Assembly (NCBI GenBank): GCA_001599915.1
Contig: BCIG01000015.1
Coordinates: forward strand, 658,240 to 722,239
Reading direction: 5' to 3'
Source: Symbiotaphrina buchneri
Lineage: Eukaryota; Ascomycota; Symbiotaphrinales; Symbiotaphrinaceae
Length of the DNA stretch: 64,000 nucleotides
The position numbers and the translations under genes are program-made. Shown in pieces: positions 61,562-64,000 of the stretch. The notes under the pieces were generated by a model that searched no databases, was not told where the DNA came from, and saw nothing but the letters and a program-made list of their open reading frames with translations. Position 1 is the first letter of the stretch, and the number at the start of each line of letters is the position of its first letter.

Positions 61562-62995
61562 ATGCCCAGCGCCACTCACCCGCCGCCGCCCTTCCGCGTC
61601 GCCATCATCGGCGGTGGCATCGGGGGGCTCTGCACCGCGCTATCCATCCATTACCACTGTCGGGATCTCGCCACGCCACCTCAGATCACCATCTACGAGC
61701 AGGCGCCGCAATACCGAGAGATCGGGGCCGGGGTGGGCATCGGGGTCAACGCGGCCAAGATCCTGTGGGACCTGGGGGTCGGCAAGGAGGCGCTGAAGAT
61801 CGCGGGCCGGCGCAGCGGCATCTGGATCAGCTTCCGCAAGTTCAATGACGGTAGCGATCTCCTGACGATCCCGGCCGTGGAGAGAGGAGAGGTCCAGCAG
61901 TTGCCTGTCCATCGTGCGGAGTTTTTGGATTTGTTGGTCAGGATTGTGAAGGAGAAGGGCGCGGCGGAGATGTTTACAAATAAGCGCTGTAAGAAGGTCG
62001 AGGTGAGTCCCGCGCTGCATTTTGAAATAGGGTTGGTTGGACGGGGACTTCGCTGACACTGAACAGGAGGGTAGCAATGGCGAGGTAGTCGTTTCCTTCG
62101 AAGATGGCACCACGGCCAGCGCAGACCTCGTCGTGGGCTGCGACGGGATCCACAGCGCAGTGCGGGGCCAATTCGCAGTCGACAAGCCCATCTACAGCGG
62201 GCGGATCGCATACCGGGCTTTGATCCCAATCTCAGCCTTCGAGTCATGGTGGCCGTTTGAGACGTACAGCGTTACGTGGTGCGGCAAGAACCGGCACTTC
62301 CTATGCTTCCCCATCTCGCAGAACAAGACGCTGAACATTGTGGCGTTTGTCGGCACCAAGGAAGAGGAGCTGGGCGACTTGAAGGAGAGCTGGACCACCA
62401 CGGGCGACCGCGCCGAGGTCGAGAAGGCCTTTGGGCTGTTCGAGGATAAGGTACATCGGTTGATCAAGCTCATGCCGGAGAAGCCTAGCAAGTGGCTCCT
62501 GAATGATCGGAACCCCCTCGACGAGTGGGTCTATCTCAATGGAAAGGTTGTGTTGCTCGGCGACGCCGCGCATGCTATGTTGCCGCACCAAGGTACGTGT
62601 CCTCAGCATCCCACAGAAATCACACGAAACACACCATATTGACATGAAACTCAGGCGCCGGCGCGGGCCAAGCCATCGAAGACGGCTATATCCTAGGTCG
62701 GGCTCTCAAGGACTACCTGTCCTCGCCGGACCGGGATTCGGACAAGACGCTGGAGCAGTGGATGCACGTTTACCAGGCGGTGCGGCTGCCGCGGGCGCAG
62801 AAGGTGGCGGCCGGGTCGCGCGAGGCGGTCGAGCTGTGGGAGGCGACGGCACCGACGATGCTCGACAAGCCCTTCGAGGAGTGCGTGCCGGAGATCCGCG
62901 AGCGCGCACAAAACCGCATGAATTGGATCTGGACGGGCGATATTGATAAAGAGTATGATGATATTGTGGCGGAGAGGAAGTTGAAGCTGGGTTAG
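61562..62995 (+). CDS. FAD-dependent monooxygenase, salicylate hydroxylase-like
   Basis: Predicted 435-aa class-A flavoprotein monooxygenase from exons 61562-62002, 62067-62592 and 62655-62995 (introns 64 and 62 bp). Motifs in order: FAD-binding RVAIIGGGIGGLCTAL (GxGxxG), YREIGAGVGIGVNAAKIL, the DG-type ADLVVGCDGIHSAVR, and GDAAHAMLPHQGAGAGQAIEDG, the second FAD ribityl motif (intron 2 falls within it). It hydroxylates an aromatic substrate with NAD(P)H and O2; salicylate 1-monooxygenase-like enzymes share this layout but substrate cannot be read from sequence. It lies just inside the telomere-truncated NtaA-like gene. Confidence 0.93.
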
Positions 62996-63769
62996 TATAC
63001 TCTAGGAAGTGTGTGTTTATGTGCTTGGCATGAGTGTTGATGGGGTTTGGTTTCGGAGATACAGAGAGCCAAGATACAGAGAGCCAGGATACAAAGAGCA
63101 GGCTGTAGACCGTTATTCTATTGAGTATTTACATATATACGATGTGGACCACTACATTCACATTCAGCTTTTGATATTTACATCTGGAATGGAGTAAATT
63201 CGCCGCGAGGAACACCGAGAAGATCGATTCGTCCTTTGTGTTCCACAGCTAAAGGTTCCGCTCAGTAGATATAGTATCTCCTATTATACACAGCTAAAAG
63301 GCGAAGCTTGAGGTCGCTGCTCTCCCAGGTCGGTTGCGAGCAACCAGTACAACATCAAGGGATGATATATACGAGGGAAGTACGATTTCGCACAAAGGTT
63401 AGGCCTTGTGCAGCTCCTAGTCAACCAAAAAAGAGCAATATGGAGTCCCTATTGTCTCAGGGACCCTATTTTATTTTCTCAATATCGTTGCATCCTGACT
63501 TGGCTACTACCCCTACGTTATTCAGTGGCACGCCGCAAGTCTTGCCAAGCCCCTGCAAAATGACAGCCCCGCCTCCATCGATGGCGTGCTCGCGACACGA
63601 CCTCGGAATGGAGCTTTATCGCATTTGTCATCTTCGCTGTGTGATATCATAATATATATCCGGAGTAGCCGTGGCCGGCAAGTCAGGGCACCGTAGTGGT
63701 CCAAAGGAGACTGTAACAGTCCATTGCTCCAATACTCATCTCCGACCAACAACCAACTAGAAAACAACC
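62996..63769. other. intergenic: last promoter before the telomere
   Basis: 774 bases holding the FAD monooxygenase 3' UTR and the promoter and leader of the truncated flavin monooxygenase. Apart from a short tandem repeat there is no other feature and no known subtelomeric helicase or satellite sequence. Confidence 0.55.
63058..63102. repeat. 15-bp tandem repeat, three copies
   Basis: Three adjacent copies of GATACAGAGAGCCAR, the last with two changes. Located just after the monooxygenase stop codon, probably in its 3' UTR. Confidence 0.8.
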
Positions 63770-63913
63770 ATGACGGAGCCCAAGAAGAAGCTGCACCTCA
63801 CCGCATTCATGCGGCCGGTCAGCCTGCACACGGGCGCATGGCGATACCCCGGCTCCTACCCAGACGCCAACTTCAACCTGGCGCACCTCAAATCCTTCAT
63901 CCAGAAGGGTTAG
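63770..63913 (+). pseudogene. 5' fragment of NtaA/SnaA-type flavin monooxygenase, cut by telomere
   Basis: From the ATG at 63770 the frame reads MTEPKKKLHLTAFMRPVSLH and continues through TGAWRYPGSYPDANFNLAHL to FIQK. This is the N-terminus of the FMN-dependent nitrilotriacetate/dibenzothiophene monooxygenase family (luciferase-like fold, normally about 430-480 aa). The gene-specific sequence ends at about 63906; the reading then enters TTAGGG repeats and stops at TAG, 63911-63913. Only 46 native codons remain, with no active-site or flavin-binding region, so the product is non-functional. The upstream promoter and start context look undamaged, suggesting a recent break. Confidence 0.88.
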
Positions 63914-64000
63914 GGTTAGGGTTAGGGTTAGGGTTAGGGTTAGGGTTAGGGTTAGGGTTAGGGTTAGGGTTAGGGTTAGGGTTAGGGTTAGGGTTAGGGT
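63907..64000 (+). repeat. telomere, (TTAGGG)n
   Basis: A GGG followed by 15 perfect TTAGGG units to the window edge, with no variant repeats. The G-rich strand runs 5' to 3' toward the right end, the correct polarity for a chromosome terminus. No telomere-associated repeat separates it from gene sequence. Confidence 0.98.

Follow-up and report, generated by a model that had tools for sequence, protein, structure and literature searches.

The closest described systems for a telomere joined directly to truncated sequence are those of Magnaporthe/Pyricularia oryzae. In the parts of these studies drawn on here, 19 of 24 new telomeres of ribosomal DNA (rDNA) in Magnaporthe carry seeds of 1–4 nt (PMC7367193), and 17 of 23 truncated MoTeRs carry seeds of 1–7 nt; of the six exceptions, five end in C (PMC7367193, PMC8381367). 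Single-copy sequences next to telomeres of P. oryzae are often explained by truncation in the same accounts (PMC7367193, PMC8381367). At the healing hotspots of Saccharomyces cerevisiae, the action of telomerase on a double-strand break leaves a truncated chromosome (PMC10055226). For Aspergillus carbonarius, the template predicted for the telomerase RNA has UAA at both of its ends (PMC3603654). The part of the AVR-Pita paper drawn on here describes no clear case of a telomere within coding sequence (PMC3145791). In this study we describe a telomere that follows directly upon the first 46 codons of a monooxygenase gene in the fungus Symbiotaphrina buchneri. The window, that is the whole stretch of 64,000 nucleotides that was analysed, is the right end of contig C15 (722,239 bp; contig positions 658240–722239) in an assembly of 23.4 Mb and 82 contigs. 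The end in question (C15R) very probably arose by terminal loss within the gene, followed by healing through telomerase.

A monooxygenase gene cut by the telomere

The residual 5' part of an NtaA/DmoA-type luciferase-like, flavin mononucleotide (FMN)-dependent monooxygenase gene is located at 63770..63907 on the plus strand of the window. It has 46 codons (M..FIQK), from the ATG at 63770 to codon 46, AAG, at 63905–63907. A perfect AGGGTT/TTAGGG tract of 95 bp, seen in the sequence and in the repeat listing, runs from there to the contig end (63906..64000, plus strand), and it overlaps the AAG codon by two bases, the AG with which the tract begins. The sequence GGT TAG at 63908..63913 (plus strand) is supplied by the telomere and adds a glycine and a stop codon to the residual frame, giving an open reading frame (ORF) of 47 aa with the repeat-derived glycine included. 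An earlier reading of this DNA, the first-pass annotation, had described the N-terminal 46 codons followed without spacer by perfect TTAGGG repeats; this observation is confirmed, and it is no chance match, as the tract forms the physical end of C15.

The gene was recognized from its sequence, its homologs, their conserved columns and a weak match to TIGR03860 (NCBIfam; E = 0.1, 11.4 bits against a cut-off of 279.7, profile positions 1–35 of 422). The fragment is too short to reach a full TIGR03860 or PF00296 match above cut-off. Nothing matched in a Pfam scan of the 47 aa, and a search of solved structures gave one match at chance level (E = 0.91). In a large protein set, all 1643 homolog candidates lie at E ≤ 0.001, and the homologs are the N-termini of fungal luciferase-like/NtaA proteins, mostly of about 442 aa. 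The 120 of the 1643 that were listed have E values from 2e-20 to 3e-18 and 85–100% identity over 85–98% of the fragment, and the homolog P0003 carries PF00296 at 1.5e-49. By homology the fragment is a remnant of an NtaA/DmoA-type monooxygenase gene and not a working member of that family.

The same homologs locate the junction. The residue following the last chromosomal lysine is leucine in all 120 listed homologs. A leucine codon must open with C or T, whereas base 63908 is G; the gene therefore stops at 63907, the sequence from 63908 on is telomeric, and at most AG (63906–63907) is common to gene and telomere. The 3-nt GGG overlap that the first-pass annotation had read at the junction is therefore to be corrected to an in-register overlap of 4 nt, AGGG, and no more than the AG of it can be chromosomal. 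In the 41-residue core of the fragment all 34 columns with a conservation of 95% or more among the 120 listed homologs are kept, and the mean identity of the fragment to the homologs is 0.945, above the identity to the others of 112 of the 120. Such a lack of visible decay fits the young event that had been suggested, although the codons are too few to date it.

The missing distal part of the gene

With the full-length homolog P0003 as query, a search of the 82 contigs did not recover the 3' part of the cut gene, a result limited by the completeness of the assembly. The search gave five matches, namely the end piece itself (95% over query 2–45) and paralogs on C14 (35%), C3 (39% and 32%, two exons) and C8 (43% over 59 residues). 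The check for the 3' part elsewhere in the assembly, which the earlier reading had proposed, thus returned only paralogs of 32–43% identity besides the end piece. A family search recovered the same three other loci; the end piece is absent from its matches because the profile is long. The gene on C14 (4833–6146) was considered as the missing piece and rejected, as it is a near full-length and distinct paralog with 35% identity over query 5–430 of 442. The locus on C8 (523119–523553) is a partial NtaA-type paralog with two TAG codons inside the match, either a pseudogene or an intron read through.

Genome-wide copy number was examined for the flanks of C15R and of the left end of the same contig (C15L). 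The 915-bp flank of C15R (62990–63904) matches itself alone in the genome, and the fragment is likewise single copy; because the flank is single copy, no internal donor from which it could have been copied was found in the assembly.

Telomere tracts, junction register and telomerase

Telomeres were searched on all contigs as exact (TTAGGG)3, 18-mers only. Long tracts are present at seven contig ends (C3R, C6L, C7R, C15L, C15R, C27L and C33L), all seven oriented outward, and C15 carries one at both ends. Three more matches are single internal 18-mers (C8:683, C29:14636 and C19:628660). The telomere is joined directly to other sequence at six of the seven ends. The exception is C6L, where a degenerate 12-bp array of the TTAGGGTTTTGC type, about 100 bp long (L011:45–144), lies between pure TTAGGG and other sequence; at this end a 492-aa open frame, aldehyde/pyrroline-5-carboxylate dehydrogenase-like by eye, ends about 318 bp interior to the pure tract. 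No subtelomeric repeat was found beside C15R, no search having been aimed at telomeric retrotransposons or telomere-linked helicases at the ends. The direct join pointed out in the first-pass annotation is thus present, but it is not special to this end, as six of the seven telomere ends are alike. This fraction is probably biased upward, since a short-read assembly favours repeat-free ends, and repeat-bearing ends may be missing; poor representation of fungal telomeres in assemblies is the subject of an earlier study (PMC2824731).

Ahead of the first complete TTAGGG stand 4, 4, 4, 3, 4 and 4 in-register bases at the six direct ends, i.e., (A)GGG-TTAGGG. If the phase were random, the chance that all six fall into two given adjacent phases would be (2/6)^6, about 0.001 (calculated by hand). 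At C7R the chromosomal sequence ends either in C or in a G that follows it.

Parts of the telomerase machinery were recognized in the assembly. The telomerase RNA-binding domain of the telomerase reverse transcriptase is found in two pieces at C13:8490–8962, 8.5 kb from the contig start. A match to Telomerase_Asco (RF02462) is located at C1:581240–581380 (L053:2441–2581), with E = 2.4e-12 and 49.8 bits against a gathering score of 30, and TAACCCTAA lies 1086 nt upstream of it on the same strand. The candidate template of the telomerase RNA is UAACCCUAA, 9 nt long, at C1:580154–580162 (L053:1355–1363) on the same strand as the RF02462 match. If a chromosomal 3' end terminates in A, it would anneal to the AAU part of this candidate template and GGGTTA would be the next block added, which would produce the register seen.

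Origin of the junction

Homology that stops at the junction, a distal part that was not found, a single-copy flank, a register common to the direct ends and the telomerase matches together make healing the best account of C15R. As in de novo telomere addition, the repeat is joined directly to formerly internal sequence, the distal part appears to be lost and the seed is short and in register. The proposal of the first-pass annotation, a terminal deletion healed by a new telomere, is upheld by this evidence. The right arm would have broken or eroded in the monooxygenase gene just past codon 46, with loss of the distal part. Telomerase would have extended the 3' end, ...CAGAA or ...CAGAAG, aligned on its RNA template, by adding GGGTTA repeats, and a new telomere would have formed directly on unique coding sequence. 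We infer that telomerase was the agent and that the arm was lost in one terminal deletion and not by stepwise erosion.

Several points weigh against this account. That an intact ancestral gene once stood at C15R is itself something we infer, and a single break has no advantage over erosion as an explanation, since the data here do not tell the two apart; for P. oryzae, the authors of one study prefer telomere failure and progressive erosion over internal breaks (PMC8381367). The register statistic draws on six junctions, and its question was posed with the data already in view. The RF02462 match is limited to model positions 1190–1381 of 1858. Within the 4 kb that hold the template candidate, the opposite strand carries a second telomere-like run of 9 nt, and runs of at least 8 telomere-like nt occur 10 times in 152,004 background bases, the background being eight loci of which two were fetched for a short telomere stretch. 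The tract lengths, overlap included, are 95 bp at C15L, C15R and C33L, 93 bp at C27L, 93 bp plus two unread bases at C7R, 124 bp at C3R and 44 bp at C6L. ALLPATHS-LG uses a word size of K = 96. The recurrence of 95 bp suggests that the visible tract length is set by the word size of the assembly and not by the length of the telomere.

The repeated tracts of 93–95 bp resemble the word size of a de Bruijn graph; most of these ends therefore have the appearance of graph ends, and telomeric reads might have been wrongly joined to a contig that ends in the gene for other reasons. We regard such an artefact as very improbable, since the tracts of C3R (124) and C6L (44) fall off the word-size pattern and a word-graph end would presumably need words that span the junction. 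A mis-attached end should also leave the 3' part of the gene on another contig, and it was found on none of the 82. The six direct ends moreover agree in register and in outward orientation, and on that ground neither chance nor artefact is accepted as a sufficient explanation by itself.

An assembly that is correct could still have a different history behind it. A deprotected end might have been repaired by break-induced replication or translocation and the telomere added afterwards, in which case the fragment was never native to C15; the 915-bp flank and the fragment are each single copy, which makes such a capture unlikely. Nor was any sequence common to the seven fetched ends found by blastn at 1e-3, a search that did not extend to short breakpoint motifs as in ciliate-type programmed breakage. 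The contig might also break at a long internal TTAGGG array beyond which the chromosome runs on, and internal arrays of 6–34 repeats are indeed described in one strain of P. oryzae (PMC8381367). Here the opposite orientation occurs at no contig end, with all seven longer tracts of exact 18-mers facing outward, and an interstitial tract is hardly credible.

Other genes cut at telomeres

Telomere healing within a gene would not be confined to C15R. The telomere at C15L cuts the gene of a flavin adenine dinucleotide (FAD)-dependent oxidoreductase (PF01266, E = 6.5e-13) in frame after 90 codons. Of 108 homologs, 106 share the last glycine; the position after it holds tryptophan in 91 of the 108, valine in 12 and other residues in 5. 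All 24 columns conserved at 90% are kept in the fragment. A genome search with the homolog P0243 gave the end piece at 76% and 17 other matches at 29–58%, none of them a 3' part of similar identity. For the 1705-bp flank the genome holds no second full copy, and its two other matches are short (87 and 100 bp). The frame at C15L (L009:1–361, reverse strand) continues without a stop through the tract as (Leu-Gly)n.

C7R opens within a phosphatidylserine decarboxylase domain; the match starts at position 37 of the 198 in the profile, where an exon border is possible. At C3R, C27L and C33L no recognisable cut gene was found by the family scan; the C3R piece has two sub-threshold family matches (E 0.04–0.07), and the C33L piece and both C27L pieces have none. 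By protein homology, a known gene is thus cut at three of the six direct ends, two of them at residue level.

Neighbourhood of the cut gene

The region upstream of the cut gene (62996..63769, plus strand) is single copy and intergenic, as judged from the genome self-match and the tandem-repeat listing, and probably holds the promoter. The sole array listed upstream of the gene at score 50 is a 15-bp tandem repeat at 63057–63099. The last whole gene before the telomere, at 61562..62995 on the plus strand with exons predicted from ORFs, appears to encode an FAD-binding monooxygenase, salicylate-hydroxylase-like by eye, with PF01494 at window 62031–62639 (E = 4.4e-10). Non-overlapping ORFs of 150 aa or more number 47 in the window; among 20 that were scanned, Pfam matches at 1e-5 were obtained in 8 of 10 and 5 of 10, and 7 of 10 further ORFs of C15 also gave a match at 1e-5. 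In the part of C15 inspected, about 124 of 722 kb, the scanned ORFs look like ordinary genes. A neighbouring VIT/VWA protein has its nearest named homologs in Pleopsidium, Lepidopterella, Lineolata and others, at about 60% identity. Together with the match to the telomerase RNA model of Ascomycota, these homologs suggest a filamentous ascomycete. A search of the window for tRNA found none.

An AT-rich block of 4.2 kb (C15:6600–10800), with about 10% G+C against about 53% around it, lies 6.6 kb from the left telomere and is perhaps a transposon heavily mutated by repeat-induced point mutation (RIP) or a small AT-rich centromere. C15 was considered as an accessory mini-chromosome. A Drf_GBD match on C15 hinted at a formin; the FH2 domain is on C18, and the match is therefore no proof that C15 belongs to the core.

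Implications and comparison with known systems

At both ends of C15 a gene stump with its start codon points at the telomere. One may go further and propose a genome largely without subtelomeres, in which telomeres sit straight in genes at most ends, the register is set by the telomerase RNA and the stump promoters of C15 could drive UUAGGG transcripts resembling telomeric repeat-containing RNA (TERRA). We consider this broader proposal improbable. The (Leu-Gly)n frame of C15L would be fused to an FAD-binding N-terminus. The narrower case of C15R offers a clean natural record of telomere healing, with the break placed within one codon by protein homology, and it shows a possible route by which fungal genes are lost at chromosome ends that have no subtelomeric repeat. 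Two healed ends on one contig, together with the template candidate, would make a good test of the rule that GGGTTA is added first.

C15R is a new case of a known process. In Neurospora crassa the sequence that carries the telomere is reportedly unique to each chromosome, and shared subtelomeres are lacking (Wu et al. 2009, Genetics); here, three of the six direct ends are inside recognisable protein genes. As for the hotspots of Saccharomyces cerevisiae, the inspection here covered the junction itself, where the chromosomal seed is 1–2 nt. TAACCCTAA is the same kind of template as that predicted for Aspergillus carbonarius, within the part of that study drawn on (PMC3603654). Common with Magnaporthe/Pyricularia oryzae are the telomere placed directly on truncated sequence and the short in-register seeds (PMC7367193, PMC8381367), and the C7R junction resembles the C-ending exceptions of Magnaporthe (PMC7367193). 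Whereas the truncations of P. oryzae were recognized, in the accounts available here, by strain comparison, cloning and long reads, those of S. buchneri were recognized from protein homology and a candidate telomerase RNA template.
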